This document shows, piece by piece, positions 10,804 through 17,379 of a stretch of DNA of 39,286 nt. The translations under genes and the position numbers were made by a program. Location: assembly GCA_937873375.1 (NCBI GenBank), contig CALMWK010000068.1:1-39286 (forward strand), given 5' to 3'. This stretch comes from Candidatus Bathyarchaeota archaeon (GTDB taxonomy: Archaea; Thermoproteota; Bathyarchaeia; Bathyarchaeales; Bathycorpusculaceae). The stretch's first letter is position 1; each line of letters opens with the position of its first letter. The notes under the pieces are model-generated. The model had not been told where the DNA came from and made no database searches. It saw nothing but the letters and a program-made list of their open reading frames with translations.

Positions 10804-13581
10804 ATGCAAGAAGCCGCAGAGGAGATTACCGAACAGAACTTCAACGCGATATTTATAGACGTAATTGAGGAAACATTCTCTGCTTTGGGCGAAAACGCAA
10901 AATCAGCGATATACTATCATTTAGAGCATAAGCATGACCTTAAAAGACATGAAATTCCCCATCGTCTTGACAGTTTTGCTAAGGCCCTTAGCGGAATTTT
11001 TGGATCAGGCAGTAAACCTTTAGAAGCAATGTTAATGAAAAAACTCCATGAGAAAGTTAACGGAACTTGCCGAGCCGCCGAGGTAGAAGATTTCACTTTA
11101 CCAAAGTATGTTGGTATGGTTAAACAGAGCTTACCCTCTTCAAAAAGCAACGCAGTAAAGGCTGTTCAAGTTATTGATGAGCCGCAATTTGGGCGAACAG
11201 GTGAAGAGACCAATTTCATATCGCTTCTGAACCTCATAGTTGACCCCGCTGTTGTTGTCAACGAAAAAGGGCTTTTACTAGTTGTAAACACTGCTTTTGA
11301 GACTTACACGAGTTTAAGCAGCGAAGAAGTAATTGGGACATCATTTTTGAAACAGACAATTATATCGGAAAAAAGCAAAGCCCTTCTGTTAGAAAATCTG
11401 AGCAAAAGACACCGCGGGTTACCCGTTGAGCCTTATGAATTAACTTTTGTCCACCCCAAAACTGGAGAGGTTGTGTACTGCGAGGTAAACGCCAAAAAAA
11501 TTACCTATGCAGAGCAGCCTGCTGACCTTGTTATTTTCCGCGACATCACTCAGCGAAAGAAAAACGAGATGCAACTCAAGGAGTACGCTGAGAAACTAGA
11601 ATGGCTTGTCGAAAAGAAAGCAGGTGAGATTATCGAAAGTGAGGAAAAATACAGTTCTTTGTTTTCCTCAATGAGTGAAGGTTTTTGTCTCCATGAAGTG
11701 GTCTATGATGGGTCAAGCAAAGCTGTGGACTATATAATATTGGATGCTAATCCCGCATATGAACTGATTACGGGAATAAAAAGAGCCGACGCTATAGGTA
11801 AAAAAGCTTCTGCACTTTACGGGACAAACGAACCCCCATACCTGGAAACCTATGCAAAAGTCGCGGAATCAAGAAGATCTGTTTCATTCGAGACATATTT
11901 TCCACCCCTAAAAAAGCATTTCAGCATCTCTGTTTTTTCTCCAATTAAAGGAAAATTTGCCACGATATTCACAGACATAACCAACCGCAGTGAACTTGAA
12001 GAAGACCTGAAGGCGAGCGAAGAGAGATTCCATGCAATAAGCAATTCTGCGATGGCTGCAATCATCTTAATGGATGAGTTGGGTAAAATTGTTTATTGGA
12101 ACCCTTCAGCAGAAAGAATTTTTGGCTACACCGAAGAAGAGGCAATTGGAAAAGAAATGGAGAAATTAATTCTCCCACCAATACATCACGGTATCCATTC
12201 AAACCTCGTCAAAAGAATGAACCCTAACAAGCGATTCTCTGGAACTCCAATAGAGTTCAACGCACTACGAAAAAACGGCGAAAAATTTCCATTAGAACTT
12301 TCAGCTTCTGTTTTGAAGTTAAAGGGAAAAATGTGCTTCATGGGAATTATGCGAGACATTTCTGAACGCAAAAAAATGGAAGACGCCCTCAAACAAGAAC
12401 GCGACATGCTTGATGACATCACACAGAACATCGGGGCAGGACTCACAATAATAAGCAAAGACTACCGCATACTTTGGGCAAACAATCTCTTAAAACAGGT
12501 TAACGGAAACGTGGACGGCAAACTATGTTACTCTACATATGAAAAACGACAAACACCCTGCCCCGATTGTGGAGTAACCAAAATTTTCAACTCAAAAATT
12601 AAATTCGATGCCCACGAATGGTCATTCAAAGACGACAAGGGCCAACAACATACTTTCCAACTTATTGTCACTCCAATAAAGGCCAAACATGGAAAAGTCA
12701 TAGCCGCATTGGAGCTTTCAGTAGACATAACTGAGAAGAAACAGTTGCAGAATAAACTCGCAGAATACTCTCAAAAACTAGAACAACTAGTGGCTGAAAG
12801 AACCCAGCAATTAAAGCAAACCCAAGCAAAACTTGTTAAGTCTGAGCGGTTGGCTGCCATCGGCGAACTCGCAGGCATGGTAGGACACGACCTACGCAAC
12901 CCCCTAACAAGCATCAAAGGCGCAGCGTACCTCCTAAGAAACAAACACTTCGGCACAATGGACGCCAAATGCAAAGATGTGCTCTCAACAATAGACAAAA
13001 GTATCGACTACTCCAACAAAATCATCAACGACCTACTAGACTACTCCAGAGACATAAAGCTAGAACTCTCAGAAACTACGCCGAAGATGCTACTCAAAAA
13101 TGCCTTGTACCTCATCGAGGTTCCAGAAAAAATTAAAATCAAAGATTCCTCGGAAGATACGCCTATAATTCAAGTTGACACTGGAAAAGTGAGCCGCGTC
13201 TTCGTGAACCTGATCAAAAACGCCATCGACGCCATGCCCGAGGGGGGAATATTAACCATAACAAGCAGAGCTAGAAAAGGCAGTTTGGAAATAGTTTTCG
13301 AGGATACTGGCGTAGGAATGGATGAGGAAACGTTGAGTAAGCTGTGGGTTCCGCTTTTCACAACTAAGGCAAAGGGTATGGGTTTTGGCTTATCCATATG
13401 CAAACGCATAGTGAAGGCGCATGGCGGAAAAATCTCGGTTGAGAGCACCGCTGGGAAAGGCACAAAATTTACTGTGACCCTCCCAATTGACCCAAACCCA
13501 TCAGTGGCAACAGAAGAACCATGGATATTCACTAATCAACCAGTGCAGGTTGCAGCTCAAAACACACCGCACACGTCATGA
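10804..13581 (+). CDS. Multi-PAS sensor histidine kinase
   Basis: A 925-aa cytosolic sensor kinase with no membrane segment. Residues 5-90 form a helical N-terminal domain that resembles the archaeal NitrOD5-type module (tentative). Four PAS-like domains follow at about 138-250, 280-395, 405-522 and 530-645, each ending in a typical D-I-T or D-I-S linker. The fourth contains C575 and a CPDC pair (586, 589), a cysteine arrangement suited to redox or metal sensing. A coiled coil leads to the phospho-acceptor His695 (GHDLRNPL), the N-box Asn806, G1 DTGVGMD (834-840) and G2 GMGFGLS (858-864). No receiver domain or response regulator gene is nearby, so the output partner is elsewhere. The ATG at 10804 has GAGGA upstream. 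The stop lies 8 bases from the convergent radical SAM gene. Confidence 0.93.
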   Translation: MQEAAEEITEQNFNAIFIDVIEETFSALGENAKSAIYYHLEHKHDLKRHEIPHRLDSFAKALSGIFGSGSKPLEAMLMKKLHEKVNGTCRAAEVEDFTLPKYVGMVKQSLPSSKSNAVKAVQVIDEPQFGRTGEETNFISLLNLIVDPAVVVNEKGLLLVVNTAFETYTSLSSEEVIGTSFLKQTIISEKSKALLLENLSKRHRGLPVEPYELTFVHPKTGEVVYCEVNAKKITYAEQPADLVIFRDITQRKKNEMQLKEYAEKLEWLVEKKAGEIIESEEKYSSLFSSMSEGFCLHEVVYDGSSKAVDYIILDANPAYELITGIKRADAIGKKASALYGTNEPPYLETYAKVAESRRSVSFETYFPPLKKHFSISVFSPIKGKFATIFTDITNRSELEEDLKASEERFHAISNSAMAAIILMDELGKIVYWNPSAERIFGYTEEEAIGKEMEKLILPPIHHGIHSNLVKRMNPNKRFSGTPIEFNALRKNGEKFPLELSASVLKLKGKMCFMGIMRDISERKKMEDALKQERDMLDDITQNIGAGLTIISKDYRILWANNLLKQVNGNVDGKLCYSTYEKRQTPCPDCGVTKIFNSKIKFDAHEWSFKDDKGQQHTFQLIVTPIKAKHGKVIAALELSVDITEKKQLQNKLAEYSQKLEQLVAERTQQLKQTQAKLVKSERLAAIGELAGMVGHDLRNPLTSIKGAAYLLRNKHFGTMDAKCKDVLSTIDKSIDYSNKIINDLLDYSRDIKLELSETTPKMLLKNALYLIEVPEKIKIKDSSEDTPIIQVDTGKVSRVFVNLIKNAIDAMPEGGILTITSRARKGSLEIVFEDTGVGMDEETLSKLWVPLFTTKAKGMGFGLSICKRIVKAHGGKISVESTAGKGTKFTVTLPIDPNPSVATEEPWIFTNQPVQVAAQNTPHTS

Positions 13582-13589
13582 TTTAAAGG

Positions 13590-14717
13590 TCAAGGAATAA
13601 TTTCGCAGCCATTATACCTCAGATACTCAAAGTCGCTTAGACTTACTTTTCCATCGCGAATAAGCCGTTTAATTCTAGGCAACTCCATCTCCACCGTCGT
13701 CACTAACCCCTTCACTGTGTTGCAAACCTCTGCGTAGGCTTCGTTGCTCCACCTCTTCGTGATATTCGCGTAGAGGCAGCGCCCGCCACACACTCCTAGA
13801 ATGTCGCATTCAGTGCATGGCGCGTCGTTAACAAAGACTTTTCCAAGACTTACTGGATTCGTTTCTGCGATGTGGCCTAAGTAGTATTTTTTCATGCCCC
13901 ACATGGTCGGGCACGGTATGATGTAGCCGTCTGTTTGGATGGCGTAATTTATCCAGCCACCCCCACAACGTAGCAGACTTGGTTCCTTGTCAAGCAACAG
14001 CGAACTGGCAATGCCCAAAAGCGGGTAAAGCCTCAGCACCGTACTTTGCGTTTCCATTTGGTCCACCCAGAACCGCGCCAGCTTCTCCACTCCTGGAATG
14101 TAGTTTTCTTCGCTCCATTTTTTGAAGTCTCGCCTCGCGTAGTCGTTTCCCCAGAAACCAGCATTCAGCTGCCAATGTACGCTGGTGAACTTGAATTCAT
14201 CATTGTCCAAGAGCCATCGGATTTGTTTGTAGATGTCAGTTTGCTCCATAACCGTCACACGGGCGATTAATTCGCCTCCAAAACCGTTTCGCTTGATTAA
14301 CTTCAGGTTGTCTACGACTTTGCGGAAGGTGCCTTTGCCACGGTAATAGTCCGTTAATGCTTCTTCCCCATCAATGGAAACTAGAATTGTGTGGAAGCGG
14401 TTAACGTACTCTGGCTCCAACTGGTCCAGCAGCAAGCCGTTGGTTTGAATCATGAAGTGCTTGGGCTTTACGGTGTCCATGACTTGTTTCATTGTGTCTG
14501 CGGCAAGGAGCGGTTCGCCGCCGTAAAACGTCACCACACAATCCGCATCTTTCCCGCAGAACTCAGCCAACATCTCCACAGGGTACTCTGCTTTTCTGGG
14601 CAGGGAATAGTCCAGTTCGAACTCGCCGAAGTCCTCGTCAAAATCATCCATCGTTTCGCCAAAGCAGTACCTGCACTGGAGGTTGCAGTCGGTTGTGAGT
14701 ATCACGTGGAAGAACAT
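13590..14717 (-). CDS. Radical SAM/SPASM protein, peptide-modifying type
   Basis: A 375-aa radical SAM enzyme. The 4Fe-4S site is C11xxxC15xxC18 near the N-terminus (TTDCNLQCRYCFG), followed by the SAM-binding FYGGEPLL and later barrel strands such as ILVSIDGEE. The C-terminal third has a SPASM-like set of cysteines: RCGGGW, IPCPTMWG, then CTECDILGVCGGRC, which bind auxiliary clusters in enzymes that modify ribosomal peptides or proteins. Size and motif layout resemble the archaeal AF1577-type family predicted to modify peptides (family recall, not searched). It starts 24 bases after the MFS gene on the same strand, so the two are probably cotranscribed. The substrate is unknown; a 14-codon ORF sits just upstream and divergent. 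Confidence 0.85.
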   Translation of the reverse strand: MFFHVILTTDCNLQCRYCFGETMDDFDEDFGEFELDYSLPRKAEYPVEMLAEFCGKDADCVVTFYGGEPLLAADTMKQVMDTVKPKHFMIQTNGLLLDQLEPEYVNRFHTILVSIDGEEALTDYYRGKGTFRKVVDNLKLIKRNGFGGELIARVTVMEQTDIYKQIRWLLDNDEFKFTSVHWQLNAGFWGNDYARRDFKKWSEENYIPGVEKLARFWVDQMETQSTVLRLYPLLGIASSLLLDKEPSLLRCGGGWINYAIQTDGYIIPCPTMWGMKKYYLGHIAETNPVSLGKVFVNDAPCTECDILGVCGGRCLYANITKRWSNEAYAEVCNTVKGLVTTVEMELPRIKRLIRDGKVSLSDFEYLRYNGCEIIP

Positions 14718-14741
14718 GCCATACAGTTGAACAGCGCTGGC

Positions 14742-16091
14742 TTAATAGTATTTTTCCGCTAACTTCCGCGCTTCCTCATACCCCTCTTGGTTATCCTCAG
14801 CTTCGCCCTCAGGGTCATCAGACGCTTTTTTGTTGTTGCCTTTTTTCTGGCTTTTCTCCGCTTCTTTCTGTGCTTGTTTGAGGGCTTTTTCGGTGTAGCT
14901 TTTGAGGTCGCGGTCTTTGAGGGTTTTCTCAGGCAACGTCTCAGGCGCGTAAATTAAGGGCAGAACAGCCAAAAACAGGAAGAATGCGGTAAAAGAGAAA
15001 AGAGCATAGGGCTGAACGTTAATCGCAATGTACTTGCCTACCGTTAATCCTAGAAATTGTGAGACAAAAAAAGGTGTTACGCCAAGAGCATAGTACTTAT
15101 CACTTGGTGCACTGTGACTCATATCTCCCCAAATTGTTAAAATAAACAGTACAAACACAAAACCCCAAGCTATACCGCCTAATATAGCGCTAAGATACCA
15201 GCTGAATACGCTTTCAGGATACGCACCTAAAAAGGAGAAGCTAAGACCAATCATGACAAATCCAGCAATGGCTATACGTTTGCGTCCGATGTAATCTAAA
15301 AGGAGACCACCAACAACTGCAAATATTCCTATAAACCCATTTTGAATCACTAAAAGAAACGCATTTTGTTCTCCCACAAAACTGGCCTGTAACGCTGCAG
15401 GCAAATAATTCACTAAAGAGAACATAACCCATGGGATAAAATACAGAATAAACGTTTGTTGGCTAATTATTTGTTTATAGGATGTAGCCCCCGTTTTCTG
15501 TTTCAGCTCTTTGAATGGAGCTACTGCTGAAATTTTTGACCAAAGAAAAGTCAGCAGGCTTGACAACCGCCAAACTGCAAGGATAACTCCTATAAAAATT
15601 GCGTCAACCGAAACAATAGTTAACATTAACATTGCGATAACAAAAGTAAACATGATGATTCCGCTAATTCGCCCCCGTTTTTCGATAGGTATGCAGTCTG
15701 TGTAAAACCGCATACACGTAGGCATTCCTACTCCTAAGGACACCCCCAACAAAAGTGCGAGAAAACTTACAATTAGAATATTTGAAACATAAATTGCACC
15801 CAGAGTCAGCGAGGATATTATTCCCAACGTCATCCAAAATATCAAAAAGCGTCTTTGCCCAATTTTTTGGGTCAACAAATTTCCCAGCAAAGCAGCAGAT
15901 ATAAGCCCAGAAAAATGAATACCCCAAACCAAAAGTGCCATAGACGTATCCAACGACATTTTTCCGATAACGTCTTGTAAAACAGAAATTACAGCATAAT
16001 ACCACACAAGCGGATTCACAACTATCATAACGTTTGTGAATACAGTTTTTGCTTCAATTCCAAGCCTTTGATGTGATGGTGCTGATAGCAT
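14742..16091 (-). CDS. Major facilitator superfamily transporter
   Basis: A 449-aa polytopic membrane protein with about 12 hydrophobic helices in two halves and MFS-like basic loops between helices 2 and 3 (QKIGQRR), after helix 4 (PIEKRGR) and in the second half (YIGRKR). After the last helix a charged, Lys/Glu-rich tail of about 70 residues ends in AEKYY. The substrate cannot be inferred from sequence. Placement directly before a radical SAM/SPASM gene, 24 bases apart, suggests a linked function such as export of a modified product or uptake of a precursor. The ATG at 16091 lacks a strong Shine-Dalgarno. The upstream region is shared with a palindrome and a divergent mini-ORF. Confidence 0.88.
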   Translation of the reverse strand: MLSAPSHQRLGIEAKTVFTNVMIVVNPLVWYYAVISVLQDVIGKMSLDTSMALLVWGIHFSGLISAALLGNLLTQKIGQRRFLIFWMTLGIISSLTLGAIYVSNILIVSFLALLLGVSLGVGMPTCMRFYTDCIPIEKRGRISGIIMFTFVIAMLMLTIVSVDAIFIGVILAVWRLSSLLTFLWSKISAVAPFKELKQKTGATSYKQIISQQTFILYFIPWVMFSLVNYLPAALQASFVGEQNAFLLVIQNGFIGIFAVVGGLLLDYIGRKRIAIAGFVMIGLSFSFLGAYPESVFSWYLSAILGGIAWGFVFVLFILTIWGDMSHSAPSDKYYALGVTPFFVSQFLGLTVGKYIAINVQPYALFSFTAFFLFLAVLPLIYAPETLPEKTLKDRDLKSYTEKALKQAQKEAEKSQKKGNNKKASDDPEGEAEDNQEGYEEARKLAEKYY

Positions 16092-16194
16092 TCACTTTCA
16101 TGCCATTTGTTCTATTATGTGATTGTGGAGAAATAAGGATTTAGAACCTGAAAACCTGATTTTAGGTACAGACAGATTACCACAAAATTTTTAA

Positions 16195-16217
16195 GTAGTT
16201 CTGTTCAACAGAACTAC
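16195..16217. promoter_or_regulatory. Perfect 23-bp palindrome, likely operator
   Basis: Arms GTAGTTCTGTT and AACAGAACTAC are exact reverse complements around a single central base. An AT-rich TATA-like stretch (AAAATTTTTAAG) immediately precedes it on the plus strand, so a bound protein would overlap the promoter of the 14-codon ORF and could also affect the MFS gene about 100 bp away on the other strand. Typical size for a dimeric helix-turn-helix regulator site. No regulator gene is adjacent. Confidence 0.65.
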
Positions 16218-16236
16218 AGAAAGGAGAAGGCTTCAA

Positions 16237-16281
16237 ATGAAGAACAATAAACCAATAAGACTCGCAGGCTCTTGGATTTAA
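16237..16281 (+). CDS. Fourteen-residue ORF with strong RBS; candidate precursor or leader peptide
   Basis: Encodes MKNNKPIRLAGSWI and stops. It is far below usual gene size, but it is preceded by AAGGAGAAGG (16221-16230) about 7-10 bases before the ATG, one of the clearest Shine-Dalgarno sequences in the window, and by a TATA-like element and a 23-bp palindrome. A T-rich tract follows the stop at once. It is divergent from an MFS gene and a radical SAM/SPASM gene, and the enzyme type is associated with modifying short ribosomal peptides. Trp13 and Arg8 are plausible modified residues, but that is speculation. Alternatives: a chance ORF, or a short regulatory RNA whose purine-rich stretch only looks like an RBS. 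Confidence 0.4.
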   Translation: MKNNKPIRLAGSWI

Positions 16282-16282
16282 T

Positions 16283-16300
16283 TTCCTTCTTTTTTATTGT
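16283..16300 (+). terminator. T-rich terminator after the mini-ORF
   Basis: Pyrimidine tract with a run of six T begins two bases after the 14-codon ORF stop. It lies 18 bases from the convergent stop of the polyprenyl synthase gene, consistent with a very short independent transcript on the plus strand. Confidence 0.45.
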
Positions 16301-16317: not shown

Positions 16318-17298
16318 TTATAGGTTCTCCAGTGTTGACTCTAACGAAGATATCAATGTTTCTTTACAATTTCCAACTGCTGTTATGTTGTGCTTTTCTT
16401 CTTTTATTAGTCGTTTCATCTCGTCTTTCAAATCAAAAGCTTCCTTCGAAGCCAACACTACATCCACTATTTTATCAACAGTGTCCTCTGTTAATTCCTC
16501 TTTAAGCAACTGCAGAATTTCCGCCTTTTTTACCTCATCTTTAAATGTGAGCAGAATGGGCAGCGGCAGGCATTCTCGTTCAGCCCTGTTCTTAAGCTCT
16601 TCAGGCTCAAACATGTCTATGACCTCGTCTCGTATAGTCATCAGCACCCCAAACGTTCTACCGTAGTGACCCAGCGCCTCCACCTCCGCCGCTGTTCCGC
16701 CACCAACAATGGCGCCTATCCTCGTAGAGGCTTCTCCAGCAGCCACTTTACCCCGTATAATCTCCAGATACTCAGGTCCTGACAAGTCTAGTCTCCCCCT
16801 GAAGCCTGCTTCCTCTGCTTCTGCCCCGCTAACCTCAAAAAAAGCTTGCTTGATTATCTTCAAAATTTCCTGCCTCTTGCTTTTCGGCAACACCTCACAG
16901 GCTTCATGCAACACATATGTGCCCTGTAGCAGAAGCGCGTCGCCTGCAAGTACGGCCATGTCTTTGCCGAATTTCCCAAAAACCGTTGGCTTAGAACCTT
17001 TAGTTACTGACTGGTCTATGATGTCGTCGTGCACGTCTGCGCCGCCCGCAAGCAACACAATGGCGGCACTCAGCTGAGTTGTGGAATCAGGGTTTCCACC
17101 TACGGCTTCGCATGCAAGCGAAACCAAAGCTGGATGCAAAACATCCTCCCAACTGTCCATAAAATAGTGTAGCGCTTCTCGAAGAGGCGTAAACGCTACT
17201 TCTTCTTGCTTGACTGTTTGCCTTGCAAACTCCAACGCTGCCTGTCCTCTTTGGCGGAAAATCGCTATAACTTTGGTCATCTGTTTCTCTTCAGCCAT
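16318..17298 (-). CDS. Polyprenyl diphosphate synthase family protein
   Basis: An all-helical trans-prenyltransferase homologue of about 326 aa that would condense isopentenyl diphosphate with an allylic diphosphate to make chains for archaeal lipids or quinones. The first Asp-rich motif is intact (DVHDDIID, Asp94, Asp95 and Asp98 counting from an upstream GTG at 17307). The second, usually GDDxxD, reads IRDEVID, so its second Asp is Glu and the preceding Gly is replaced. That pattern occurs in divergent archaeal paralogues, and activity or chain length cannot be fixed. The ATG at 17298 is preferred to the GTG three codons earlier. It is divergent from leuS, with a gap of about 110 bases. Confidence 0.85.
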   Translation of the reverse strand: MAEEKQMTKVIAIFRQRGQAALEFARQTVKQEEVAFTPLREALHYFMDSWEDVLHPALVSLACEAVGGNPDSTTQLSAAIVLLAGGADVHDDIIDQSVTKGSKPTVFGKFGKDMAVLAGDALLLQGTYVLHEACEVLPKSKRQEILKIIKQAFFEVSGAEAEEAGFRGRLDLSGPEYLEIIRGKVAAGEASTRIGAIVGGGTAAEVEALGHYGRTFGVLMTIRDEVIDMFEPEELKNRAERECLPLPILLTFKDEVKKAEILQLLKEELTEDTVDKIVDVVLASKEAFDLKDEMKRLIKEEKHNITAVGNCKETLISSLESTLENL

Positions 17299-17379
17299 CG
17301 TAACCACTGCACGCTGTTTATGGCATGTTTCTGTATTTGTCGTTTTAGGTTAAATCCTCTTTCAGAGGGAAGCAAAACT

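Follow-up and report, generated by a model that had tools for sequence, protein, structure and literature searches.

Tiny peptide genes between prenyl-synthase-like and MFS transporter genes in Bathyarchaeia, a candidate peptide-modification system

ComQ, the enzyme of the ComQXPA system of Bacillus, has the fold of trans-prenyl synthases and attaches an isoprenoid to a small precursor, ComX, with a tryptophan (Trp) near its C-terminus; enzyme and precursor of ComQXP systems diversify fast between relatives. Tiny precursors with hydrophobic C-terminal tails, often with Trp, also occur in the streptococcal ComS/XIP and SHP systems, which have no prenyl-synthase homologue, and the wider groups of radical SAM/SPASM (rSAM) maturases usually act on longer precursors. 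PalQ of Paenibacillus alvei, the partner of PalX, modifies a C-terminal Trp (PMC10853753), and according to a review all characterised prenyltransferases resembling trans-isoprenyl diphosphate synthases (trans-IDS) act on Trp, their second aspartate-rich motif (SARM) being repurposed for it (PMC13290415). Here we describe an archaeal gene set with a similar plan. It lies on a 39,286-nucleotide stretch of DNA (the window), contig 68 of a 2.0-Mb genome of a Candidatus Bathyarchaeota archaeon. A peptide gene of 14 codons stands in the gap between a polyprenyl-synthetase-like gene (PPS) and an MFS transporter gene, antisense to both, and an rSAM gene follows 24 nt downstream of the MFS gene (Table 1).

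The locus resembles ComQ-ComX in the trans-IDS fold of the enzyme, with the first aspartate-rich motif (FARM) kept and the SARM altered, in the small precursor, in Trp near the precursor's C-terminus and in how quickly enzyme and precursor diverge among relatives. It differs in being archaeal, in the size of its precursors (10-22 amino acids across the family), in the antisense position of their genes between the enzyme and MFS genes, in the nearly constant presence of the MFS gene and in having no ComP/ComA pair consistently at the locus. With PalQ-PalX and Ord1 it shares a repurposed trans-IDS fold and a C-terminal Trp in many precursors, whereas PalX carries a leader of the NHLP type and is partnered by a kinase. 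As for the rSAM/SPASM maturases (PapB, nif11-type), the rSAM protein of the window passes the TIGR04084 (rSAM_AF0577) cut-off, with 307.4 bits against 225, but here it stands outside the most widely conserved unit. The likeness to ComS/XIP and SHP lies in the tiny precursors with hydrophobic, often Trp-bearing tails; no Rgg-like receptor was found here, where no search aimed at one was made. The ComX model PF05952 found no match in this genome, but none in control genomes either, making it a weak search. Judged on the features compared, the plan is like that of ComQX and PalQX, and the locus is not a ComQX member.

A conserved family of tiny peptide genes

A DNA search with the intergenic region returned its own locus and two weak matches only, so we sought conservation through the flanking proteins; an Rfam search gave no match. 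Profiles for PPS, MFS and rSAM led to 111 PPS-MFS gaps (some genomes being represented by two records), the named relatives being Candidatus Bathyarchaeota with Bathycorpusculum among them. The gene order PPS, gap, MFS, rSAM recurs in many genera (protein searches; contexts up to 20 kb). A short open reading frame (ORF) on the same strand is present in essentially all main-clade gaps, and 80 distinct gaps of Bathyarchaeia relatives carry a same-strand peptide of this previously unannotated family (type I). Gaps of the same genus hold MKNRPVPVRIGGWA, MKSQRPMPIRLGTWA, MNTKKPVAPIRMGWA, MKKANKLVRVAPWV and MKKNNKIIRSAGWM at the same place. The peptides share a Lys/Arg-rich start, the motif P[VIM]R and a variable hydrophobic tail of 2-9 residues; the leader is 50% Lys/Arg, and 59 of the 80 type I peptides, that of the window included, have Trp among the last six residues. 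Gaps in another class of the phylum contain MKKYNPTPIRIWVPPLP and its relatives, the f30 peptides likewise having Trp in the last six residues.

A first filter (8-30 amino acids, at least three Lys/Arg, Trp within the last five residues) was passed by 78 of the 111 gaps on the peptide strand and by 6 on the other strand. In almost all gaps that failed it the peptide is of this kind and lacks Trp (MKKKDVPVRVGP, MKKATVKRAKKRDVPVRILG, MEKKKKEKKLKPMRLYGI, MKATKKREIPVRVTG), and once these had been read the notion of a universal Trp was rejected. A strict rule (ribosome-binding site, Lys/Arg-rich start, [PVIA][VIMA]R, tail of 2-9 residues), written post hoc with examples in hand, is satisfied in 57 of the 80 distinct-peptide gaps and in none on the opposite strand, and 100 dinucleotide shuffles gave a mean of 0.44 and a maximum of 3, both controls using the same rule. 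The original prediction had looked to a GSW-like motif; what is conserved instead is the basic start with P[VIM]R, Trp being found in about three quarters.

The peptide codons are under purifying selection. In nearest pairs picked by PPS identity, the ratio of nonsynonymous to synonymous change (pN/pS) was 0.45 in frame compared with 0.78 and 0.97 in the two shifted frames; with synonymous sites almost saturated, 0.45 is an upper-side estimate. A ratio of 0.25, obtained before from pairs picked by peptide similarity, was discarded as biased. The original prediction had named loss of the codons or of the palindrome among relatives, and equal synonymous and nonsynonymous change, as grounds for giving up the tiny ORF. 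Codons, operator core and selection all came out in its favour, homologues fill essentially every homologous gap, and we regard the reality of the peptide gene as virtually certain.

TATA-like stretch, palindrome, ribosome-binding site and ORF are all present as first described, with slightly corrected coordinates. The window has a single copy of the palindrome, and the genome a single match to its inner 17 bp with up to two mismatches allowed; by a rough estimate a palindrome with 11-nt arms is a few-percent event in 39 kb by chance alone. Its conserved part is a 9-bp core, TGTWSWACA, beside the TATA box. When the 80 upstream regions are aligned at the start codon, TATA, TGTWSWACA, ATACA and the ribosome-binding site follow one another in nearly all, and in many another TGTWSWACA precedes TATA. 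The pattern of TATA, core and TACA gave 33 matches in 101 genomes, nearly all at homologous loci, and its reversed control gave 0. Conservation of TATA box and operator core across relatives bears out the regulated promoter first proposed for the ORF. Of 118 loci, 51 have a PadR-family gene upstream of PPS and, close by, a second PadR gene in divergent orientation, and a PadR relative (63% identical) is encoded elsewhere in this genome. PadR is a candidate operator-binding protein, unproven because three same-genus genomes with the peptide give only weak PadR matches.

Two matches to the promoter pattern, found by the operator pattern alone, are orphan peptide genes far from PPS and MFS genes (L303, 8322-8378; L304, 7993-8064), with the tails PMRLYGI and PIRTFI as at the main locus. 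One encodes exactly the main-locus peptide of its genome, MEKKKKEKKLKPMRLYGI; in the other the leader has diverged and the tail is unchanged (RRPKPIRTFI). The L303 orphan is divergent from an acyl-CoA:6-APA acyltransferase-like gene (PF03417). One genus has apparently lost the gap peptide, yet an operator-bearing orphan is present (MKKKRLPVRVGP, MEKKKVPVRIAP). Two genomes of the other class (L325, L330) contain two tandem peptide copies each, with identical sense codons and unrelated flanks, in line with selection; recent duplication could be an alternative cause of this identity.

Table 1 Positions of the features in the window and of the type III precursors at related loci
Feature	Position	Strand	Evidence or remark
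14-codon precursor gene MKNNKPIRLAGSWI	16237..16281, ATG..TAA	+	Sequence; homologues; pN/pS
Archaeal TATA box TTTTTAAGTA of the peptide gene	16188..16197	+	Sequence; same place in relatives
A-rich CCACAAAA	before TATA box TTTTTAAGTA	+	Sequence
Palindromic operator GTAGTTCTGTTCAACAGAACTAC	16195..16217	.	Two perfect 11-nt arms, central C
Operator core TGTTCAACA (TGTWSWACA)	16202-16210		Conserved part of palindrome
Ribosome-binding site AAGGAGAAGG	16221..16230	+	Sequence; present in most relatives
PPS, proposed peptide prenyltransferase	16318..17307	-	PF00348
MFS transporter, proposed exporter	14742..16091	-	PF07690; beside PPS in nearly all loci
rSAM/SPASM enzyme, accessory	13590..14717	-	TIGR04084 rSAM_AF0577
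Type III precursors	L301 2676-2897; L302 5982-6203; gaps of L223, L250, L254, L256		Unannotated

A prenyl-synthase-like enzyme that co-varies with the peptide

The co-oriented rSAM and MFS genes named by the original prediction are both present; it overlooked the PPS gene that flanks the ORF on its far side. PPS belongs to a subfamily set apart from the ordinary synthases by its scores, which span about 160-480 bits (mostly above 300), the next group reaching about 153 at most. The subfamily occurs in about 90 of 251 sampled genomes of the class and also, at 254-303 bits, in another class of the phylum. A confident AlphaFold2 model of PPS (pLDDT 94.7) has a geranylgeranyl diphosphate synthase, 1wy0, as its best fold in the PDB, and the Ord1 Trp prenyltransferase (9v4g/h/i) is among the best profile and fold matches. 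The FARM aspartates and the last aspartate of the SARM are kept in 32 of 32 sequences, with the first two SARM positions varied. Features of canonical isoprenyl diphosphate synthases are missing from the set: the Lys of the isopentenyl diphosphate (IPP) site (GGKxxRP) and the second Arg of RRG are each lost in 30 of the 32, the Lys of the GK motif after the SARM in all. Unlike PPS, both canonical enzymes of this genome keep all of these residues. Because the first aspartate motif is kept and the IPP site lost, PPS looks like a repurposed prenyltransferase.

Mean identity across the same pairs was 75% for LeuS and 71% for rSAM, both encoded next to the locus, and 38-39% for PPS and MFS; one pair had 94% for LeuS and 89% for rSAM with 55% for PPS and 56% for MFS. 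Given rSAM, partial Mantel correlations were 0.45 for peptide and PPS, 0.34 for peptide and MFS and 0.55 for PPS and MFS (p = 0.0005 each), and that of peptide and rSAM given PPS was 0.11. This co-variation fits a specificity-determining set of peptide, PPS and MFS, with rSAM outside it. By analogy, the fast divergence of PPS and MFS with the peptide next to conserved rSAM and LeuS is a ComQX-like pattern.

These data suggest a ribosomal precursor with a Lys/Arg-rich leader ending in P-[V/I/M]-R and a short, lineage-variable hydrophobic core (here LAGSWI), which would be transcribed from the strong TATA box adjoining the dedicated palindromic operator. With its allylic-diphosphate/Mg aspartates kept and its IPP site lost, the PPS-like enzyme most likely puts an isoprenoid on the peptide, as ComQ and PalQ do on theirs, with Trp as the acceptor in peptides that have it. 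The MFS protein is predicted to export the product, cleavage at the conserved basic residue would free the tail, and in most of the window's family rSAM may modify the peptide further. The best explanation of the gene set is that the PPS-like enzyme acts on the precursor and the product is exported; as a whole we consider this rather probable, and prenylation by itself we put near an even balance. With a leader/core precursor encoded next to genes for modification and export, the locus agrees with a ribosomally synthesised and post-translationally modified peptide. The original prediction holds for the look of the precursor, its MFS partner and the control site, and falls for rSAM as the main maturase. 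The variable tails, the co-diversification of peptide, PPS and MFS and the orphans with conserved tails suggest a secreted, pheromone-like signal or an antagonistic peptide, and our preference for a signal is a guess.

Several points weigh against this explanation. A Trp acceptor, as in ComX, is not universal: 21 of the 80 peptides lack Trp among their last six residues (with tails such as VGP, AGP, ILG, LYGI and FD), so a Trp-only reaction cannot be general. The Gln before the SARM that holds the indole in PalQ and Ord1 is absent in 32 of 32 sequences of the PPS-like set, which have T, I, N, L, V, A, S or F instead. Because of this absence and the Trp-free quarter of the peptides, Trp may be the acceptor in only some cases or in none. 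The type I loci showed no linked receptor or dedicated protease, and the system is known here from its genes.

Related clusters and other explanations

Instead of yielding a processed and exported product, the peptide might serve as an intracellular structural or regulatory partner that binds the MFS protein, the PPS-like enzyme or both. A basic start with a hydrophobic end is plausible for a ligand of membrane proteins, the peptide co-varies with both proteins, and the Trp-free tails share no common acceptor residue. However, the tails vary more than the leaders (pN/pS 0.55 over the last six codons, 0.38 over the leader), and orphan and tandem copies exist. Two related ARRANGEMENTS, the type II and type III PPS-MFS clusters, also speak for a processed product. 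In type II, PPS is divergent from an operon of a trypsin-like protease (PF00089) with a signal-peptide-like start, a Lys/Arg-rich peptide ending in WW, and MFS. It is found at five loci in all, in this genome on contig 135 (L055, G000:C135, 2632-6060; paralogous PPS and MFS, peptide MAKRAVRAKGGVQPTVVSVWW) and elsewhere at L246, L247, L257 and L258, and all five peptides have Trp in the last six residues. With trypsin-like specificity, this apparently secreted protease would be suited to cutting at the conserved basic residues. Type III comprises more distant PPS-MFS pairs with long-leader precursors of 73-87 amino acids, antisense in the gap; several of these are clearly homologous, most have Trp near the C-terminus, and none matched a Pfam or NCBIfam family, ComX included. 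On this evidence we hold an intracellular partner to be unlikely.

The product might also be an antimicrobial lipopeptide in place of a signal. The same gene evidence applies to it and MFS export could double as self-protection, but no immunity gene was recognised, and nothing here separates antimicrobial from signal; we rate it as quite unlikely.

The original prediction made rSAM the key maturase, with PPS, in such a model, an incidental neighbour. TIGR04084 is close to the peptide-modifying PapB and nif11 families, and rSAM follows MFS in most loci of the window's family; in a check of 103 PPS-MFS pairs (duplicate records counted), 73 had it less than 400 bp downstream of the MFS gene. Yet rSAM is absent from the f6, f7 and f30 loci, of other families of the order and of another class, which keep PPS, peptide and MFS. 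Bathyarchaeum, Nanoarchaeota and Methanofastidiosum, moreover, have members of the same rSAM family with no PPS-MFS pair close by. It is also conserved in sequence and barely co-varies with the peptide after accounting for PPS. An essential rSAM maturase is accordingly improbable, and we read rSAM as an accessory modifier or a co-transcribed neighbour.

Least probable is an attenuator leader peptide, or an antisense RNA on the PPS and MFS transcripts, with an incidental ORF: the short ORF, the T-rich stretch past its stop and the antisense position would suit it, but no same-strand gene follows before the convergent PPS end, the constraint is frame-specific and at the amino-acid level, orphan copies exist away from PPS and MFS, and the transcript fold is not unusually stable (z -0.04).

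Some neighbouring features complete the picture of these loci. A FAD-dependent oxidoreductase with weak similarity to geranylgeranyl reductases is inserted between MFS and rSAM at L084 (8093-9184) and would fit reduction of a prenyl chain; a wider MFS-rSAM gap at L110, L111 and L118 suggests the same insertion. In the window a large PAS/HisKA sensor kinase gene (10804-13581) adjoins the rSAM gene, with homologues near the clusters of only some relatives. Two records, L107 (DPLR01000647.1, titled Cytophagales) and L155 (titled Hadesarchaea), carry titles that misfit their bathyarchaeal-type loci and are possibly mis-binned contigs.

Implications for Bathyarchaeia

Literature on TIGR04084/AF0577, on modified ribosomal peptides of Bathyarchaeia, on archaeal peptide pheromones and on archaeal ComQXPA yielded nothing relevant, and within the searchable literature neither a peptide pheromone nor a prenylated peptide that is genetically encoded turned up for archaea. 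The main text of a survey of modified ribosomal peptides in archaea mentions neither prenylation nor Bathyarchaeia (PMC12144867). For a large archaeal group that is mostly uncultured, our analysis defines a specific set of genes, an operator and a family of more than 80 precursor sequences; the hosts are many uncultured archaea of soils and sediments. Genes for 10-22 amino acids, although strongly conserved, escape annotation. The gene set suggests that bacteria are not alone in having prenyl-synthase-fold enzymes act beside short peptides, most of them with Trp. Tentatively, the locus may represent a widespread system of peptide communication in archaea, extending across the order in Bathyarchaeia and into another class of the phylum, in which tiny, lineage-specific prenylated peptides would be the signals and PPS and MFS co-evolving pherotype determinants.

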